The notes beneath the pieces were generated by a model, which had not been told where the DNA came from, did no database searches, and saw nothing but the letters and a program-made list of their open reading frames with translations. From assembly GCA_030065115.1 (NCBI GenBank), contig JASJDO010000007.1, positions 1 through 35,251 on the forward strand: a stretch of 35,251 bases of DNA, written 5' to 3'. The first letter of the stretch is position 1; each line of letters starts with the position of its first letter. This DNA comes from Rhizobiaceae bacterium. GTDB taxonomy: Bacteria > Pseudomonadota > Alphaproteobacteria > Rhizobiales > Rhizobiaceae. This document shows, piece by piece, positions 20,686-29,402 of the stretch. Made by a program: the position numbers and the translations under genes.

Positions 20686-21312
20686 TTAGTGAGCGAAAAC
20701 TTCAGGAGACGCTTTGGCAAAAGCATCAAGTGACGCACAAACACGCTCCACCTCAAGAATCCGGGACAAGTCATCAATTTCAACACCCCAGCGACGGGCA
20801 TTATACAGCTGCGGTATAAGGCAAATATCGGCCAAAGAAGGTGTATTGCCCACACAAAAAGGAGCTTGTTTAAACCCTGCCAATTGGGCCTCAAAGGCTT
20901 CCAATCCCGGGCGGGTAAATCGACGCATCCATTCGGAGCGTTGAGGCTCCTTTCCTTTGGTAGCGTAAGTTACCACAGACAGATTGCATACTGGATGTAC
21001 ATCCACCGCAAGTGTGTAAGCTAATGACCTTACACGTAATTTCTCAGCAGGATCATCCGGGAGAACACTAAGCTTCCCTGTGTCATTCAAGTATTCGATG
21101 ATCGCCAGGGACTGGGTAAAGCGCTTGCCATCAATCTCCAACACAGGCACAAGGCCTTGCGGACTGCGGTTGATATGCTCTTCAGTTTTTTGCGTGCTTT
21201 GAAGCAAATCAACCATCTCACTGCGAAACGAAATACCAGCCAGATTAAGCGCAATACGCACCCGATAGCTTGCGGAAGATTTTGGATAATCCCACAAAAC
21301 CGCTTCGGTCAT
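20686..21312 (-). CDS. maiA: Maleylacetoacetate isomerase (zeta-class GST)
   Basis: A 208-residue zeta-class glutathione transferase fold enzyme. It isomerises 4-maleylacetoacetate to 4-fumarylacetoacetate with glutathione, the second step after HmgA in homogentisate breakdown. The signature SSASYRVRIAL (12-22) is diagnostic, Gln67-Ser68 in FTQSLAIIEYL is the glutathione-binding pair, and SLADICLIPQLYNARRWG is typical of the C-terminal domain. Its ATG overlaps the stop of the DUF2783 gene (4 nt), so translation is coupled. It is the last gene of the operon and ends 31 nt from the convergent tRNA. I see no convincing terminator hairpin after it. Confidence 0.94.
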   Translation of the reverse strand: MTEAVLWDYPKSSASYRVRIALNLAGISFRSEMVDLLQSTQKTEEHINRSPQGLVPVLEIDGKRFTQSLAIIEYLNDTGKLSVLPDDPAEKLRVRSLAYTLAVDVHPVCNLSVVTYATKGKEPQRSEWMRRFTRPGLEAFEAQLAGFKQAPFCVGNTPSLADICLIPQLYNARRWGVEIDDLSRILEVERVCASLDAFAKASPEVFAH

Positions 21313-21491
21313 TTCGCAGCTTTCAACGCTTCCTGCAAAACCGTTCGATCACCAATCTGATTGGCAAGTACCAAGATTAGCCGAGCGTTGAATGCATCAC
21401 TTTCCTCCTTAGAGAGGCCCTCATGGGCGGCCAGCAATTCATCGTAAAATCCGTCAGGGTCCGGAATATTGGGTTCCACATTTATGGACAT
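21309..21491 (-). CDS. DUF2783 small protein, possible MhaB-like coupling protein
   Basis: A 60-residue acidic protein of the DUF2783 family: MSINVEPNIPDPDGFYDELL, then AAHEGLSKEES and a C-terminal ARLILVLANQIGDR segment. It has no signal or membrane segment and is probably helical. It sits directly after a flavin hydroxylase gene (25 nt gap) and overlaps maiA by 4 nt. The Pseudomonas putida U 3-hydroxyphenylacetate 6-hydroxylase needs a small coupling protein, MhaB, of about 6.3 kDa beside the flavoprotein MhaA. Size and position fit this protein. I cannot compare the sequences here, so the functional link is inference. Confidence 0.82.
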   Translation of the reverse strand: MSINVEPNIPDPDGFYDELLAAHEGLSKEESDAFNARLILVLANQIGDRTVLQEALKAAK

Positions 21492-21516: not shown

Positions 21517-23139
21517 TTAATCGCTGCTGATTGCAGTGCGTAACGCGGAGCGAATTGCTTCCATATCGAACTCGGGCCATCTGGCTACCACGTGCTGATC
21601 CGGACGGATAAGATACACAGCACTATTATTACTACCGAGATAGCGTTGTTTCATTTCACTAGAGGGCTCAGTTACAGACAGCGTTTTGACATCAATGCCA
21701 TTAATCAGCAGATTATCTGCTACCGGTTCGTTGACGGCGAGTAGGCAAAAGCCGTTGTTAAGGTGATCGAGCAAAAATCCTTCGCCCAAAGGCGCATCCG
21801 GGCATGGCCGTCCGGGTTTGGTCACATCCGGCCCATCGAGTTTATCTTCTCCAAACAGCGGGAACTCGTGGTAAGTGCAAGGCACAGAAAGTCTTCCCGA
21901 ATTGACCAGAGGACGGGCAAAGGCATGGTCGCGGGCAAGGTGAAGCACCGCATCCCGGAACATTCTGGACATTTCGCTTTTGGGCGTCATGAAGTCAGTT
22001 GCTCTAGAAGAGTTCAAAATGTTTTCGTCGGCCCCATGGCCGCGCTCATGACTGTAACTGTCAAGCAAGCTTTCTGGTGCGAGTCCTTTCAGCACCAAGT
22101 AGAGTTTCCAGGCCAGGTTTTCTGCATCCTGCATACCTGAATTGGCACCTCTGGCTCCGAAGGGCGAGACCTGATGCGCGCTATCTCCCGCAAAGAAAAC
22201 ATTCCCTTTACGAAACTCTCTCATCCTGCGGCATTGAAACGTATAAATAGAAGTCCAGACCAGTTCATATTCCGGCACAGTGCCGGTCTGGCTGGAAAGC
22301 ATCGCATCAACACGGGCTCGGATGCGTTCAGGATCCATTTCCAGTTCTCGGTCGATATCCCACCCAAGTTGAAAATCGATGCGCCAAGTATCATCTGGCT
22401 GCTTATGCAACAGAGCTGATTGTCCCGAATTTTTGAAGGGTGGTTCGAACCAGAACCAGCGCTCCGTGGGAAAATCAGCTTGCATGCGCACATCGGCAAT
22501 AAGGAAATTGTCTTCAAACACCCGACCTTCAAAACCAAGCCCTAGCATTTCCCGAACTGGGGAACGTGCACCGTCACACGCAATTACCCAATCGGCTTCC
22601 AGCTCATAGGGACCATCAGGCGTATCAACTTCCAACAGCGCATGTTCGTCATGTTGAATCAGGTTGGTAACCTTATTGCGGCCGCGAATTTCAATCGGCT
22701 TACCCGCCAATTGAGCGCGATTGATTTCTTCGACGAGAAACCGCTCAAAATAGGGTTGCTGCAGATTGATAAAGGCCGGATGGCGATGGCCTTCTTCAGG
22801 TAGAAGATTGAACTCAAAGAGACGATTTTCATCATGAAAAACTTTGCCTAGATTCCATACGACCCCTTTTTCCACCATGGGCTTCGCTGCACCAAGGCGG
22901 TGACAAATGTCCAATGTGCGCTTTGCAAAGCAAATCGCCTTCGAACCAAGACCTGCGCCATCGTGATCATCAAGCACCAGAACCGGTGTACCTTTCTTGC
23001 CAAGGTCCAGTGCAAGGCCCAGCCCCACCGGACCACCGCCAATCACCACAACCTTGTGGCGTTTGGGTGGCGCCGTCTGATCGGCCACCTTTTGATAAGG
23101 ATAGAGCTGGAATGCAGTTTCGTAACGTTGTGCGACCAT
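21517..23139 (-). CDS. FAD-dependent aromatic hydroxylase, MhpA/MhaA-like
   Basis: A 540-residue class A flavoprotein monooxygenase. It has the dinucleotide fold VVVIGGGPVGLGLALDLGKK near 30-50, the DG motif WVIACDGARSPVRE in the middle, and the GD motif FAGDSAHQVSPFGARGANSG followed by MQDAENLAWKL. This is the 3-(3-hydroxyphenyl)propionate hydroxylase family. In this operon the likely product is homogentisate, for example from 3-hydroxyphenylacetate (MhaA of P. putida, about 63 kDa) or a related phenol; the substrate is inferred. The ATG at 23139 is chosen because CTGGAGGAGATT precedes it. A frame extension to 23181 runs into the upstream gene and is rejected. DUF2783 follows by 25 nt. Confidence 0.9.
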   Translation of the reverse strand: MVAQRYETAFQLYPYQKVADQTAPPKRHKVVVIGGGPVGLGLALDLGKKGTPVLVLDDHDGAGLGSKAICFAKRTLDICHRLGAAKPMVEKGVVWNLGKVFHDENRLFEFNLLPEEGHRHPAFINLQQPYFERFLVEEINRAQLAGKPIEIRGRNKVTNLIQHDEHALLEVDTPDGPYELEADWVIACDGARSPVREMLGLGFEGRVFEDNFLIADVRMQADFPTERWFWFEPPFKNSGQSALLHKQPDDTWRIDFQLGWDIDRELEMDPERIRARVDAMLSSQTGTVPEYELVWTSIYTFQCRRMREFRKGNVFFAGDSAHQVSPFGARGANSGMQDAENLAWKLYLVLKGLAPESLLDSYSHERGHGADENILNSSRATDFMTPKSEMSRMFRDAVLHLARDHAFARPLVNSGRLSVPCTYHEFPLFGEDKLDGPDVTKPGRPCPDAPLGEGFLLDHLNNGFCLLAVNEPVADNLLINGIDVKTLSVTEPSSEMKQRYLGSNNSAVYLIRPDQHVVARWPEFDMEAIRSALRTAISSD

Positions 23140-23159: not shown

Positions 23160-24110
23160 TTAACCTTGCAACTGTGCCCACATGTCAAGATCGCGCTCAG
23201 CAGTCCATATCCGAGGCGTATCAATGCCACGTGCTTCGTCGTAAGCGCGCGATACGTTAAAGGGCAGACAGTGTTCATAAATCGCATATTCTGAAAATTT
23301 CGGATCACAACTAGCTCTGACAGCGTCCCAGGCTTCCTTCAGTGTTCCCCCTCGGGCAGCAACCTTGGCTGCCGGATCATAGGTGGAATAGACAAAATCC
23401 CGTGTGCTTTCGATGGCTCGGGCCACTGCCTCTTTGCCAATCAGCGCACCACCACGACCAGGCGCAATAGCATCAACGTCAAAAGCCATGATGTTGTCCA
23501 GCGTGTCGCCCCAATCGGCAAAATGACCATCGCCGCAATAGCATGCCGAGTGATCTTCCACGATATCACCGGTAAACATGACGTTTTCATCAGGCACATG
23601 AATAACAATGTCACCCGCCGTATGTGCCCGCCCAAGATGCATCAAGTCTACGCGTCGATTGCCAAGATAGACCGTCATAGAGTCGCTGAATGTTGTGGTG
23701 GGAAACGTAAGTCCGGGAATACTCTCATGGCCCTCAAACAGTCGAGGAAACCGTTGAAACTCGGAATCCCAGTCTTCCTGACCCCGCTCGACCACCATAG
23801 CGCGAGCCGCATCGCCCATAATTACCTGATCAGCTGAATATGCTGAGGCTCCCAGCACACGCACAGCGTGGTAATGGGTCAGCACCACATGACTTATTGG
23901 CTTGTCAGTGACAGATCGAACCTTTTCAATAACCTTTTCAGCCAGGCGAGGTGTCGCCTGAGCTTCAACGATCATCACGCTGTCATCACCAATTATTACG
24001 CCGGAGTTTGGATCGCCTTCAGCGGTGAAGGCCCAAAGGTCTTTGCCTACTTCGTCAAACGTGATCTTCTTCTCTGTCATGTCCCCCTGGGACGCAAAAG
24101 CTTTAGCCAT
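23160..24110 (-). CDS. MBL-fold protein with altered metal site
   Basis: A 316-residue metallo-beta-lactamase-fold protein in the homogentisate operon. The usual HxHxDH motif is replaced by His79-Tyr-His81-Ala-Val83-Arg84. Later ligands are His163 (GRAHTAGD) and Asp182 (FTGDIVEDH), while the usual last His is Arg219 in APGRGG. So the site-1 histidines remain and the site-2 Asp and two His are absent. A long C-terminal extension (about 240-316) follows the core. The function is unknown; a hydrolase for a thioester or ring-cleavage by-product is only a guess. The ATG overlaps the end of the preceding gene by 8 nt with GTGGAG upstream. A longer start at 24158 lies inside that gene and is rejected. 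Confidence 0.88.
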   Translation of the reverse strand: MAKAFASQGDMTEKKITFDEVGKDLWAFTAEGDPNSGVIIGDDSVMIVEAQATPRLAEKVIEKVRSVTDKPISHVVLTHYHAVRVLGASAYSADQVIMGDAARAMVVERGQEDWDSEFQRFPRLFEGHESIPGLTFPTTTFSDSMTVYLGNRRVDLMHLGRAHTAGDIVIHVPDENVMFTGDIVEDHSACYCGDGHFADWGDTLDNIMAFDVDAIAPGRGGALIGKEAVARAIESTRDFVYSTYDPAAKVAARGGTLKEAWDAVRASCDPKFSEYAIYEHCLPFNVSRAYDEARGIDTPRIWTAERDLDMWAQLQG

Positions 24111-25122
24111 TTTTTTTCTCCACAACTTGTTCAATCGCACCGAAGATGGATTTGCCATCGTGATCCTTCATTTCGATGCGTACAGTATCTCCAAATCTCA
24201 TGAAACCCGTAGTTGGCTTTCCATCCTTGATGGTCTCAATCATCCGGATTTCCGCAATACAGGAATAGCCCACACCACCTTTTGAAACCGGCTTGCCGGG
24301 ACCATTTTCCAGTTTGTTGGAGACCGTGCCTGATCCAATAATGGCGCCAGCTCCAAGGGGCCTGGTCTTAGCCGCATGTGAAACCAACTGGCCAAAATCA
24401 AATGTCATGTCGATGCCTGCCTCTGCCCGACCAAATGCTTCGCCATTGTAATCCACGCAAAGCGGCAAGAGCACCTTGCCGCCATCCCAAGCGTCTCCCA
24501 GTTCATCCGGCGTAATTGCAACAGGAGAGAAGGCAGAAGAGGGTTTGGATTGGAAAAATCCGAAGCCCTTGCCCAACTCTGCCGGGATCAATCCCCGTAA
24601 AGAGACATCGTTGACCAGCATAATCAAACGAATAGCTTGCGCTGCTTCTTCGGGCGATGCGCCCAGAGGCACATCATCAACAATAACGGCCACTTCGCCT
24701 TCCATGTCGATTCCCCAGTCTTCCGCACCATCAGGGAAAGAAATCGGATCGCGAGGACCCAACAAGGTATCTGAACCGCCCTGATACATGAGAGGGTCTG
24801 TCCAGAAACTCTCTGGCATTTCTGCGCCACGCGCCTGACGCACAAGTTCGACATGGTTCACATAGGCAGATCCGTCTGCCCATTGATAGGCGCGTGGAAG
24901 CGGGCTCATGGCGTCCTTCTCATGAAAGCGCTGAGTTGGCTGACTAGCCGTCTCAAGCCCTTGTGCTACCCGGGCCAATCTGGGGGCAATTGCTTCCCAG
25001 TCATCAAGAGCTGACTGCAATGTAGGAGCGATGTGACCGACTGCTGTGCATTGTGTCAGGTCCTTGGAGACCACGACCAGCACCCCGTCTCGGGTGCCAT
25101 TTTTAAGGGTTGCGAGTTTCAA
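24103..25122 (-). CDS. Fumarylacetoacetate hydrolase family protein
   Basis: A 339-residue FAH-superfamily enzyme, most likely the one cleaving fumarylacetoacetate to fumarate and acetoacetate, since it lies between hmgA and maiA. It is shorter than eukaryotic-type FahA (about 420 residues) and belongs to the shorter bacterial type. Metal ligands of the family are visible: Glu141 and Glu143 in DMEGEVAVIVDD, and Asp172 in MLVNDVSLR. GSGTVSNKLENG and FMRFGDTVRIEM match the core. The start is a TTG at 25122. It gives MKLATLKNGTRDG, which fits the family N-terminus, but the ribosome site is weak, so translation may be coupled to hmgA 21 nt upstream. Confidence 0.92.
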   Translation of the reverse strand: MKLATLKNGTRDGVLVVVSKDLTQCTAVGHIAPTLQSALDDWEAIAPRLARVAQGLETASQPTQRFHEKDAMSPLPRAYQWADGSAYVNHVELVRQARGAEMPESFWTDPLMYQGGSDTLLGPRDPISFPDGAEDWGIDMEGEVAVIVDDVPLGASPEEAAQAIRLIMLVNDVSLRGLIPAELGKGFGFFQSKPSSAFSPVAITPDELGDAWDGGKVLLPLCVDYNGEAFGRAEAGIDMTFDFGQLVSHAAKTRPLGAGAIIGSGTVSNKLENGPGKPVSKGGVGYSCIAEIRMIETIKDGKPTTGFMRFGDTVRIEMKDHDGKSIFGAIEQVVEKKNG

Positions 25123-25143: not shown

Positions 25144-26505
25144 CTATTTTTTACCTGGCGTTCCGTCGAACTTCTTGTCTAGTGACGTCCAGCAATCAAT
25201 GTAATCGTCCTGCAAGGGCGCCTCCTTCGCTGCGAATTCAGTCAGGTGCTGTGGAAAGCGTGTCTCGAACATGAATGACATGGTGTTGGATAGATATTCA
25301 GGCTCAAGATCGGCGTTCGACGCCCCTTCAAAAGCGTTCTTGTCCGGTCCGTGGGGCAGCATGCAATTGTGCAGGCTCATCCCACCAGGCACAAATCCCT
25401 TCGGTTTGGCATCATAGACACCATAAATGTTGCCCATCAATTCCGACATAACATTTTTGTGGTACCACGGCGGGCGGAAGGTATTTTCCGCAACCATCCA
25501 ACGGTCCCTGAACAATACAAAGTCGATATTCGCAGTACCCTCCATGCCTGACGGCGCGGTAAGAACGGTGAATATGGAAGGATCCGGATGATCAAACAAA
25601 ATTGCACCAACCGGACAATAAGTTCGTAAATCGTATTTATACGGTGCGTAGTTGCCGTGCCATGCCACCACATCCAAAGGGCTATGCCCGATTTTGGTTT
25701 CATGGAACTGACCGCACCATTTAATCGTCAGCGTAGAGGGAACCTCACGGTCTTCAAAGGCAGCAACAGGTGTTTTAAAATCCCTCCTATTCGCCATGCA
25801 ATTGGCTCCAATGGGACCGCGGCCCGGAAGCTCAAATTTCTGACCGTAATTTTCACAGACAAAACCACGGCATGGCCCATCCAGAACTTCCACCCGGTAA
25901 ACCAAACCGCGGGGTATGACAGCGATTTCCTGCGGCTCGATGTCAATGACACCCAGTTCTGTACAAAATCGTAGCCGACCTTCTTGCGGCACAATCAGCA
26001 ATTCAGAATCCGCAGAATAGAAATAAGCATCCACCATGCTTTCGGTCACCAGATAAACGTGACTTGCCATGCCTGTTTGCGTGTTCACATCTCCCGCAGT
26101 GGTCATGGTGCGCATTCCGGTGAGCCATGTCAGGGACTCCTTGCTTGTTTCCACCGGATCCCAACGATACTGCCCGAGGGATGTTACATCTTCGATGACA
26201 TGAGGAGCCGATTTCCAATAAGGCATGTCGATGCGCTCAAAACGATGTGTATGCTTTACCGACGGGCGAATTCGATAGCACCATGTCCGCTCATTTTGAT
26301 GGCTTGGTGCGGTAAAGGCTGTGCCCGATAATTGTTCGCCATACAGACCATAATTACACTTTTGAGGGCTGTTCATGCCTTGTGGGAGTGCATCCGGCAA
26401 AGCTTCAGTTTCAAAATCGTTGCCAAATCCCGGCATATATTCGAGAGAGCTCCGACTTGAATCATTTTCGACATCAATCGTCTTAGAGGAGACATCAATA
26501 TTCAT
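25144..26505 (-). CDS. hmgA: Homogentisate 1,2-dioxygenase
   Basis: A 453-residue enzyme that opens the homogentisate ring to maleylacetoacetate using Fe2+ and O2. The iron ligands, by comparison with the human enzyme, are His349 and Glu355 ([14 protein letters not shown]) and His385 (LPHGPD), with the expected spacing. [19 protein letters not shown] and the [15 protein letters not shown] segment mark the N-terminal half. The ATG at 26505 is chosen because GAAAGGGACTATT precedes it. The frame extends to 26577, overlapping marR, but that extension covers the promoter and is rejected. It is the first gene of a six-gene operon and diverges from a MarR regulator, with an operator-like dyad in the promoter. 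Confidence 0.97.
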
Positions 26506-26575: not shown

Positions 26576-27010
26576 ATGGATCAGAAAAATTCTTTTGAAC
26601 TCACAGACTTCTTGCCTTACCTGCTCAATCAGGCGGCGGAAGTAACCAGCCGTGACTTTGAGCCATATTATAAGAAGAAATACGGCATGTTGCGTACAGA
26701 ATGGCGAGTACTGTTTCATCTGGGTCAATACGGCACCCTAACCGCGAAAGACATCTGCCAACGCGCACGAATTCACAAGACCAAGGTCAGTCGCGCAGTC
26801 CATGCACTTGAACAGAAACGCTACCTGAGTCGCGAGCAACTTCCCGATGATCGTCGTCATGAGAAGCTGGATTTAACCCGATCAGGACAACGGGTGTTCA
26901 AGGACCTTGAAACTGAGGCCCAGAATTTTGATCGGCAGATGATGACGAGTTTCACTGAGGAAGAGTATCAAATGTTCCGCTCTCTTCTGGCCCGTGTGGC
27001 GAAACTCTAG
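26576..27010 (+). CDS. MarR family transcriptional regulator
   Basis: A 144-residue MarR-type winged-helix repressor. The core reads [22 protein letters not shown], and the recognition region [21 protein letters not shown] is followed by the wing [20 protein letters not shown]. It is divergent from hmgA with a 70-nt gap that holds the hmgA promoter and a dyad, so it very likely controls the homogentisate operon, with homogentisate or an upstream phenolic as inducer (inference). No ribosome site precedes the ATG. A TTGCTT (26541) and TAATTT (26564) pair with 17-nt spacing would start transcription about at the ATG, suggesting a leaderless message. Confidence 0.9.
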
Positions 27011-27290: not shown

Positions 27291-28862
27291 CTAAAGGTTT
27301 CCTGCAGCCATTTCTGACGCAAGATGGTCCGCCTGACGGATCGCCAAGGCGACAATCGTCAATGTGGGATTCTCTGCAGCACCTGTTGTGAACACACTGC
27401 CATCCGAAACGTATAGGTTCGGGATATCATGCGTCCGTCCCCATTTGTTTACCACGCCATCACGCGGGTTTTCTGACATCCTGTTGGTGCCAAGGTTGTG
27501 TGTGGATGGATATGGCGGCGTCGGGAAGGTTCGGGTTGCTCCAACAGCATCATAGACCGCCTGCCCTTGCTGATATGCATGATTGCGCATGGCAATGTCA
27601 TTCGGATGATCATCAAAATGCACATTCACAACCGGCAAACCATATTTGTCCTTCACATCATTGTTGAGGGTAACACGGTTGGTTTCCTGGGGCATGTCTT
27701 CACCCACGAGCCACATACCAGCCATGTTTTCATACATGTCCAATGCAGTTGTAAACTCGCGACCCCAGGCACCCGGATCAAGGAACGCAGCCATAAACGG
27801 TAATCCAAGTGCCAGTGTTTCCATCTCGTAGCCGCCCACGAACCCACGGCTCGGGTCATGTCTGGACTCATCCGTGATAATTCCAGCCATGGTGGTTCCA
27901 CGCCACATTTTCACAGGCTTGTCGAACACGGCATAAACGGAGCCGGTCATGTGCCGCATGTAGTTGCGCCCAACTTGACCCGAAGAGTTAGCCAGACCAT
28001 CTGGGAACATGCTGGACGCTGAATTGAGCAACAGACGTGGGCTCTCAAAGGAGTTACCAGCAACACAAACGACACGTGCCTTCTGCATTTGCAAATTGCC
28101 GTCCTTGTCGAAATACTCGACACCGGTCACCTTACCTTCGTCATTGTGAAGAATGCGTGCAACATGCGATTCTGGACGGACTTCCAGATTTCCGGTTGCC
28201 TCCCCTTCCTCAATGTCGTGATAGCCTGCTGACCATTTTGCACCCCACTTGCAACCCTGGAAGCAAAAGCCGGTTTGCTGACACATCGTGCGATCGGTAT
28301 TATCACTCGAAGAAATTGCCATTCTGCCGGTATGAACGTCCTTGTATCCAAGGGACTTCGCACCTGCTTCAAACACCTTATAGTTGTTGTTGCCAGGCAG
28401 GCCTGGACGGTTACCGGTTCGCGTCACATGCAATTTGTCCTCTGCCTTTGTGTACCAGGGATCCATTTCCGCCGCATCAATCGGCCAGTCCAGAAGGCTC
28501 GCGCCCTGAACATTGCCATAGGTTGTTGCAGCCTTCCATTCATGGTCCTGAAACCGTAAGGAAGCCCCCGCCCAGTGCTGGGTAGTCCCACCAACCGACT
28601 TTACGATCCATGCGGGAAGTCCGGAAAAGTCCTTGGCAACGCGCCAGTCGCCCGAGGTAGTTCTGGGATCAAGCCAGGCCAACTGGCCGAAACTGTCCCA
28701 TTCATCGTTGATGAAATCTTGCGGTGTGTGTCTTCCACCTGCTTCTAGCGCAACGACGCTGACGCCTTTCTGGGCGAGTTCGTTCGACAGAACACCGCCA
28801 CCGGCGCCTGTTCCGATTACCACGACAACACTGTCGTCATTCTTGTCAAATGGTGCAGCCAT
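27291..28862 (-). CDS. GMC-type FAD dehydrogenase, catalytic subunit (FAD-GDH/gluconate dehydrogenase-like)
   Basis: A 523-residue GMC oxidoreductase. The FAD motif is GTGAGGG (17-23). GGTTQHWAGA (91-100) and HNLGTNRMS (His455 the likely catalytic base) follow, with a C-terminal TGAAENPTLTIVALA. Cys194-x5-Cys200-x3-Cys204 matches the cysteine spacing that binds the [3Fe-4S] cluster in the Burkholderia FAD-glucose dehydrogenase alpha subunit, as I recall it. It has no signal peptide and would be exported with the Tat small subunit encoded just upstream (15-nt gap). The sugar or sugar-acid substrate is unknown. The expected multihaem cytochrome c subunit gene is not in the window. GGGGAGGA precedes the ATG. 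Confidence 0.9.
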   Translation of the reverse strand: MAAPFDKNDDSVVVVIGTGAGGGVLSNELAQKGVSVVALEAGGRHTPQDFINDEWDSFGQLAWLDPRTTSGDWRVAKDFSGLPAWIVKSVGGTTQHWAGASLRFQDHEWKAATTYGNVQGASLLDWPIDAAEMDPWYTKAEDKLHVTRTGNRPGLPGNNNYKVFEAGAKSLGYKDVHTGRMAISSSDNTDRTMCQQTGFCFQGCKWGAKWSAGYHDIEEGEATGNLEVRPESHVARILHNDEGKVTGVEYFDKDGNLQMQKARVVCVAGNSFESPRLLLNSASSMFPDGLANSSGQVGRNYMRHMTGSVYAVFDKPVKMWRGTTMAGIITDESRHDPSRGFVGGYEMETLALGLPFMAAFLDPGAWGREFTTALDMYENMAGMWLVGEDMPQETNRVTLNNDVKDKYGLPVVNVHFDDHPNDIAMRNHAYQQGQAVYDAVGATRTFPTPPYPSTHNLGTNRMSENPRDGVVNKWGRTHDIPNLYVSDGSVFTTGAAENPTLTIVALAIRQADHLASEMAAGNL

Positions 28863-28877
28863 TTTCGTGTCCTCCCC

Positions 28878-29402
28878 TTAAATCCAGTTAATGTCGTTAA
28901 AGCCGCGATCGATGTAGCCACCTTTTGAGAAGCTTTCACCTTCGTAGCCAAAGAGTGGCCATACGGCTTTTTGATTGTACAATCCCGTGACAAGGCCGCC
29001 CCGGACGGTTTGGAAAAACGGGCTGTCTTCCATGCCCCGCAAAATGTCCACGCGGTCTCGTTCCCAGCCAGCGCCCACGTAACTTGAATGCCCTTTACCG
29101 ACAGCAGCAGCATTCAGCGCTGCGATACCGGCTTCAACCGTATCCTTGCTGTCTGCGGAATCGTAACCTTTTACCGCTGCAGCGTAGAACTCGTCTCCCA
29201 CATGGTCATGGGGATAGATATCACGTGCCATCTGGATGAGTGTCGCCATGGTTTCCGGCTTGAGATGCTGTACTTCCAGCGCCCAACTGGCTGTTGGACT
29301 TGCAACGAACCCGGCGCCTACAACAAATGCCGCCCCAAGGGCCGCACTTCCTGACAACAACTGTCGCCGGGTCATGCTTACAACAGATTTTTCTTTCTTC
29401 AT
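28878..29402 (-). CDS. Gluconate 2-dehydrogenase subunit 3-type small subunit (Tat)
   Basis: A 174-residue protein of the gluconate 2-dehydrogenase subunit 3 family (PF13618). The N-terminus has a twin-arginine signal: TRRQLLSGSAALGAAF, then a hydrophobic stretch ending at an Ala-rich SWALE near residue 42. The mature part contains MARDIYPHDHVGDEFYAAAV and a late FGYEGESFSKGGY, both typical. In the FAD-glucose, gluconate and sorbitol dehydrogenases this subunit carries the folded GMC subunit out through Tat. Length and order (small subunit then GMC) fit those operons. A strong AGGAGGAAATT site precedes the ATG. A VOC-family gene lies 34 nt upstream. Confidence 0.92.
   Translation of the reverse strand: MKKEKSVVSMTRRQLLSGSAALGAAFVVGAGFVASPTASWALEVQHLKPETMATLIQMARDIYPHDHVGDEFYAAAVKGYDSADSKDTVEAGIAALNAAAVGKGHSSYVGAGWERDRVDILRGMEDSPFFQTVRGGLVTGLYNQKAVWPLFGYEGESFSKGGYIDRGFNDINWI

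Follow-up and report, generated by a model that had tools for sequence, protein, structure and literature searches.

We report that an MBL-fold protein encoded in a homogentisate operon belongs to a distinct family with an altered metal site, and that this family occurs together with both components of an aromatic hydroxylase system in a sample of 398 genomes. The reading that we prefer, with a probability of about 0.45, is that the protein would be a catalytic one-metal MBL enzyme in which a pair of arginines replaces metal 2 and grips a carboxylate, and that it would act as the third component of the MhaAB hydroxylase system by hydrolysing an acyl derivative. The MBL protein may therefore be an overlooked third part of the homogentisate-making pathway. 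The DNA from which the analysis starts, referred to below as the window, is a stretch of 35,251 nucleotides from a Rhizobiaceae bacterium.

The MBL gene and its operon

The protein is a member of the MBL-fold superfamily (PF00753, Lactamase_B: 46.9 bits, against a cut-off of 22.7). Its gene lies in an operon whose order on the minus strand is hmgA, FAA hydrolase, MBL, FAD hydroxylase, DUF2783 and maiA, with a divergent MarR gene (Table 1). The first 8 nt of the MBL gene (24103-24110) are also the last 8 nt of the FAA-hydrolase gene, and the FAD gene starts 20 nt past the MBL stop if its ATG at 23139 is used; the alternative GTG at 23181 would make the two genes overlap. The DUF2783 gene was absent from the preliminary description of this DNA. 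The FAA hydrolase of the window is of the short FAA_hydro_N_2 type, and the long FahA type is present in many relatives' loci: among 164 MBL loci, some of them only 4 kb long, the long type was counted in 104 and the short type in 21. Beyond the MarR gene, the window (27291-29402) also encodes a GMC-type oxidoreductase and its small partner, which, judged by eye, is like gluconate dehydrogenase subunit 3 and has a twin-arginine signal.

Table 1. Coordinates of the MBL gene, its metal-site residues and its neighbours in the window, and of VOC-family genes in other loci
Feature	Position	Strand	Basis or remark
MBL-fold protein, 316 aa	23160..24110	(-)	ORF, Pfam Lactamase_B match, AlphaFold2 model
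HYHAVR, residues 79-84	23859..23876	(-)	site-1 His79 and His81 kept; site-2 Asp replaced by Val83, then Arg84
His163, third site-1 histidine	23622..23624	(-)	143/143 in alignment
Asp182, kept	23565..23567	(-)	142/143 in alignment
PGRG, residues 217-220	23451..23462	(-)	Arg219 at usual place of last site-2 His
FAD-dependent aromatic hydroxylase, MhaA type (NF006002/PRK08132), 540 aa from ATG	21517..23139	(-)	731 bits vs 416
DUF2783 protein (PF10932), MhaB-like small coupling protein	21312..21482 (profile-match extent)	(-)	99.1 bits vs 25
maiA, maleylacetoacetate isomerase	20686..21312	(-)	TIGR01262, 208.7 bits vs 171
Fumarylacetoacetase-type hydrolase (FAA_hydrolase + FAA_hydro_N_2)	24103..25122	(-)	profile match
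hmgA, homogentisate 1,2-dioxygenase	25144..26505 (ATG at 26505 assumed)	(-)	TIGR01015, 656.8 bits vs 510.75
MarR-family regulator, divergent	26576..27010	(+)	PF12802
VOC-family proteins	L158:12880-13437, L176:8371-8898, L180:5860-6411, L154:10077-10625		

The two genes that follow the MBL gene point to a known enzyme. MhaAB, the 3-hydroxyphenylacetate 6-hydroxylase of Pseudomonas putida U, is described in the main text of PMC3053370 as a two-component system, with a reported activity that converts 3-hydroxyphenylacetate to homogentisate. The same text places beside hmgA1 in Burkholderia xenovorans LB400 two genes, mhaA (560 aa) and mhaB (60 aa), whose products are homologous to the P. putida U hydroxylase and coupling protein, and the word 'lactamase' does not occur in it. 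In one of our loci (L165), the order FAD gene, DUF2783, hmgA is that of mhaA, mhaB and hmgA1 in LB400. Because order, length and family match, we infer that the NF006002 and DUF2783 proteins correspond to MhaA and MhaB.

The gene content of the window genome (assembly 94% complete) is informative as to the origin of its homogentisate. No match to a 4-hydroxyphenylpyruvate dioxygenase was found in it at E<=0.001 and paaA is present, so that its homogentisate probably has a different origin, for which MhaAB is the obvious candidate; the compound would probably be made from a hydroxyphenylacetate via this hydroxylase, and not by the usual route from tyrosine. Among MBL loci of at least 14 kb, paaA is present in 7 of 119, against 0 of 25 loci without MBL, which form a weak control as only 20 of them are 15 kb long, three short ones repeat three long ones and six are FAD-DUF2783 loci. 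A link to phenylacetyl-CoA cannot be established from only seven loci.

Conservation of the altered metal site

Canonical dinuclear MBL hydrolases carry an HxHxDH motif, followed by a His in the second half of the protein, an Asp, and a last His (PGHG). The residues listed in the preliminary description, namely HYHAVR, His163, Asp182 and PGRG, were all recovered in the protein encoded at 23160-24110 on the minus strand. Asp182 occupies what we take to be the position of the residue that usually bridges or ligates metal 2. An arginine at position 84 is found too in subclass B1 lactamases (BcII, once aligned, reads HAHADR), and the diagnostic changes are therefore Asp83 to Val and His219 to Arg.

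The family was examined in an alignment of 143 distinct sequences, comprising the window protein and 142 relatives that share 42-92% identity with it, below 70% in the case of 42. Eighty of these relatives are the best 80 of at least 580 matches, and 62 more come from a draw of 398 genomes within Pseudomonadota, the phylum of the window; five loci duplicating others, as well as L081, which is the window itself, were dropped before alignment. The canonical dinuclear motif is replaced throughout: V83, R84 and R219 stand for Asp, His and His in 142, 143 and 143 of the 143 sequences, respectively. H81 and H163 are invariant, as are both arginines (143/143 each), and H79, V83 and D182 are each found in 142, all three exceptions residing in a single sequence, L115. 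P217 is replaced by Gly in 6 of the 143. Beyond the metal site, R109, D113, E117, R120, R123, R288, W200 and D307 are also constant (143/143), and E108, H280, D291, E292 and W302 are present in 142 sequences. The first eight plasmid loci read have HYHAVR with PGRG or GGRG in all cases, and the two nearest outsiders recovered (G057 and G105, 30-33% identical) have HTHLDH with PGHG.

The altered metal site is a trait of a distinct family under constraint, and not a product of decay. This bears out the proposal of the preliminary description that the protein is conserved and specialised: the altered motifs hold across the 142 relatives aligned, none of which combines HxHxDH with PGHG. That description had left the choice between a mono-metal or non-metal enzyme and a binding protein for a pathway intermediate. 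A single metal is favoured here, as conservation is equally strong in the site-1 ligands and in the arginine pair, and, judging from these conservation patterns, the protein is probably a catalytic one-metal enzyme. The same alignment bears on the idea of a dinuclear enzyme in which metal 2 would be held by His280-Cys281, by the Cys190/Cys192 pair or by Asp194. We consider it improbable: besides H280, C281 (141/143) and D194 (143/143) are nearly invariant, as the idea would have it, but positions 190 and 192 are less constant (with Cys in 120 and 121 of the 143, respectively), and an Arg at both 84 and 219 should disfavour a second cation at that place.

Co-occurrence with the hydroxylase components

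The distribution of the family was determined in the 398 Pseudomonadota genomes of the draw. MBL matches at E<=1e-30 were obtained in 62 genomes, which, less the two outsiders with HTHLDH/PGHG (G057 and G105), leaves 60; NF006002, counted at E<=1e-100 with all matches above cut-off, is present in 59, and DUF2783 in 59. The NF006002 and DUF2783 genome sets are identical, and all 59 are contained in the 60 MBL genomes (Fisher 3e-70 for MBL against FAD, which is indicative only, as kinship was ignored in the statistics). The 59 genomes with the triad are spread over 13 of the draw's numbered families. One of these, f1, contains the window genome with the triad and 16 listed genomes without it, showing that members of one family can acquire or lose the triad as a set. 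We regard a partnership of the MBL protein with MhaAB as highly probable.

The genes are often, and not always, neighbours. MBL and FAD genes are at most 6 kb apart in 52 of the 59 genomes; the other seven have both genes, not within 6 kb (G367 being counted provisionally, as its MBL gene is near a contig end), and both of the unlinked MBL genes whose neighbours were scanned, L129 (G019) and L132 (G231), adjoin a TetR gene. These arrangements are relevant to a different role, that of a metal-binding, non-hydrolytic partner that would assemble with MhaA/MhaB or guard against leaked quinone or peroxide, its metal being structural or product-binding. Such a role would agree with an altered active site, and complete co-occurrence with both hydroxylase components in the 398 genomes is what is seen for a complex subunit. 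The seven genes not within 6 kb and the two TetR neighbours would nevertheless be unusual for a subunit, and few residues are as well conserved as the metal ligands and arginines, so that we find this role unlikely.

The preliminary description had presented the gene as part of the hmgA operon, a framing that does not hold across genomes, where the MBL protein is constantly accompanied by the FAD hydroxylase and by DUF2783. HmgA is present in 108 of the 398 genomes, 49 with MBL and 59 without, and 11 of the 60 MBL genomes lack HmgA. Neighbours were counted by tblastn with known neighbours, in replacement of a greedy ORF clustering and a GC-based gene call that called genes wrongly in some genomes. 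By this count hmgA lies within 4 kb of MBL in 64 of 71 close relatives' loci (among the matches listed), and distance correlation over 90 loci does not tell FAD and HmgA apart (partial 0.56 each); these genomes are related and kinship was ignored. Both results would suit a general hydrolase of homogentisate operons that has no tie to the hydroxylase and owes its co-occurrence to common ancestry and operon transfer. Three observations make such a hydrolase quite unlikely: no FAD genome lacks MBL (0/59), as opposed to the numerous genomes in which HmgA and MBL are found one without the other; MBL copies that do not lie near the FAD gene still co-occur with it; and of 37 loci of the wider genome draw, only 15 have hmgA within 4 kb, versus 29 for FAD and DUF2783.

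Several genes of possible relevance were found where HmgA is missing. Gentisate as a general alternative in the 11 MBL genomes without HmgA finds no support, since TIGR02272 is above cut-off in 3 of the 11 and never near MBL. A recurrent neighbour of the FAD/DUF2783 or MBL genes, including in several loci missing hmgA, is a VOC-family protein of about 180 aa that may represent an unrecognised ring-cleavage or isomerase step; a VOC-FAD-DUF2783 operon is listed for Bradyrhizobium diazoefficiens in PMC6710368. In another locus (L116:10926-12074), from a genome without TIGR01015 HmgA, the trio and a MarR gene flank the gene of a protein that resembles HmgA but is divergent (HgmA_N 62.8 bits; 23% identity with the window HmgA in a tblastn match), and a PaaX-type regulator and paa genes are close by. 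Ring cleavage in the absence of HmgA may be due to this protein or, elsewhere, to the VOC protein beside fahA or the FAD gene.

Annotated plasmids offer a further view of the locus. Twenty plasmid records were considered, four of them without annotation, and 16 loci were read, in whose records the MBL protein is annotated only as 'MBL fold hydrolase'. MBL, FAD gene and DUF2783 are together in 12 of the 16, including one in which DUF2783 is unnamed in the annotation and was found by separate comparison. The neighbours of these 12 trios are hmgA/fahA/maiA, or VOC and fahA, or TRAP transporters, and on pDSHI02 of Dinoroseobacter shibae the trio stands directly before pcaF-paaABCD. Within the remaining four loci the trio is incomplete: DUF2783 is missing from two Rhodococcus loci and that of Bosea vaviloviae, and Acidovorax has a partial FAD match. 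In Bosea sp. 685 and the two Rhodococcus, identity of the FAD partner reaches only 34-36%. On the Rhodococcus plasmids (L151:8995-11628 and L152:8992-11625) the MBL gene adjoins this distant FAD monooxygenase (35-36% identity); a DUF2783 gene was not found in the vicinity, and acetyl-CoA acetyltransferase and CoA-transferase genes are also carried there.

The FAD proteins were compared in a midpoint-rooted tree, read from its topology without support values, of 62 sequences chosen from 147, from which pieces shorter than 430 aa (the copies of L170, L177 and L179 among others) were excluded. All members of the main clade have DUF2783 within 0.8 kb, except L148, at a contig end, and all come from genomes with MBL, which lies outside the locus in the case of L165, L176 and L180 and inside it in the others. 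Members of a paralogue clade have neither DUF2783 nor MBL nearby, and the Rhodococcus and Bosea proteins are outside both main clades. Potential counter-examples come from family f44, which we guess to be the Pseudomonadaceae, and in one genus of which MBL was found in 0 of 25 genomes at E<=1e-30. Three of 298 f44 genomes have an NF006002 protein above cut-off and no member of the MBL family (best E 3.9e-11, about 25% identity), and neither DUF2783 nor HmgA was found in the 15 kb around their FAD genes. As these three FAD proteins belong to the paralogue clade, in our judgement the genomes are not to be counted against the triad.

The reverse situation, MBL with neither FAD gene nor DUF2783, is met in a single genome of the draw, G139. 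Its MBL copy (L115:8604-9545) has an intact frame with the changes H79N, V83L, D182A and E185V, and is the only one among the 143 sequences with lost metal ligands. It departs from 4 of the 47 positions that are invariant in the other 142, compared with 0-1 in seven other divergent members tested. The four ORFs scanned beside it encode a protease, a UvrD-type helicase, a transporter and an acetyltransferase, and the protein may have a new role or be decaying. In this one case, then, absence of the hydroxylase goes with loss of the metal site. The observation weighs against the possibility that the protein carries no metal and has a binding or regulatory role towards a pathway intermediate, to which the loss of three canonical ligand positions and the ability of arginines to bind an acid might lead. 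We hold it to be very improbable: His79, His81, His163 and Asp182 are conserved as strongly as the arginines, and the non-metal option of the preliminary description loses likelihood because the sole copy without its ligands sits where both partners are missing.

Proposed reaction and relation to known systems

In the one-metal enzyme that we favour, a metal in site 1 (His79, His81 and His163, with Asp182) would activate water, and Arg84 and Arg219, in their presumed positions in the fold, would hold the carboxylate of an aromatic acid in the former place of metal 2. The MBL protein would be a constant third component beside MhaA (the FAD hydroxylase) and MhaB (DUF2783), which make homogentisate. 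Its most likely substrate would be an acyl derivative of hydroxyphenylacetate or homogentisate, either a 2-coumaranone lactone or a CoA thioester, whose hydrolysis would supply the hydroxylase or HmgA with the free acid. Ortho-hydroxyphenylacetates, homogentisate included, readily form lactones, and 2-coumaranones are for this reason the first candidate substrates. Lactone or thioester hydrolysis is nevertheless put forward tentatively, at a lower likelihood than the scheme as a whole. A bolder extension, which we view as a long shot, is that MhaAB-type homogentisate synthases are really three-component: the MBL protein would open a 2-coumaranone or thioester leaking from phenylacetyl-CoA epoxidase metabolism, or its single metal would act as a Lewis acid and rearrange a dienone (quinol-acetate) to homogentisate.

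The fold was predicted with AlphaFold2 from a 50-row alignment (mean pLDDT 95.1, pTM 0.92); a prediction on the single sequence was discarded (pLDDT 42.9). Two identities suggested by profile searches were rejected, namely that of a class B beta-lactamase (NCBIfam B2 69.7 bits vs 240; B1 62.8 vs 200) and that of a SoxH-related quinoprotein relay hydrolase (TIGR04559 110.6 vs 280; TIGR04558 85.8 vs 300), the latter two profiles being the best NCBIfam matches of the MBL protein by E-value. Open-literature searches, which leave most subscription journals outside their coverage, found no paper describing the MBL protein, nor did a search for the code 8d2z find one on that deposited structure. The entry 8d2z, an MBL superfamily protein of Burkholderia cenocepacia, is a member of this MBL family, with 53% identity and a Z score of 47.3 at an rmsd of 1.1 A over 303 residues; it matches the window protein with 372.9 bits across residues 1-315, with HYHAVR and PGRG aligned.

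Subclass B2 carbapenemases such as CphA and Sfh-I share the MBL core and have one-zinc forms (Z 24.8-25.5). These B2 enzymes use the other metal site. Beyond the family, the nearest listed fold is that of the chlorothalonil dehalogenase Chd (6uxu; Z 30.0 over 276 residues, model residues 9-296), which is described in the text of PMC12784990 as having one catalytic Zn per chain, held by Asp116, His117, Asn216 and His257, and an aromatic substrate. The Chd ligands would lie on the site-2 side, and their window counterparts, as assigned by motif order, would be V83, R84, D182 and R219. The MBL family and Chd are thus apparently mirror images in the metal site that each has kept.

As for MhaAB, the partner genes of the window match MhaA and the 60-aa MhaB in length and order, whereas the activity of the window protein is only predicted. 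A homogentisate route described as two-component appears to have a third component, from Alphaproteobacteria to Rhodococcus. The family would also provide a clean natural case in which one metal site of a dinuclear fold has been exchanged for other residues, arginines included, and for which a crystal structure is already deposited. What is likely to be new, relative to these known systems, is a variant of a known fold with a role as third component of a hydroxylase system.
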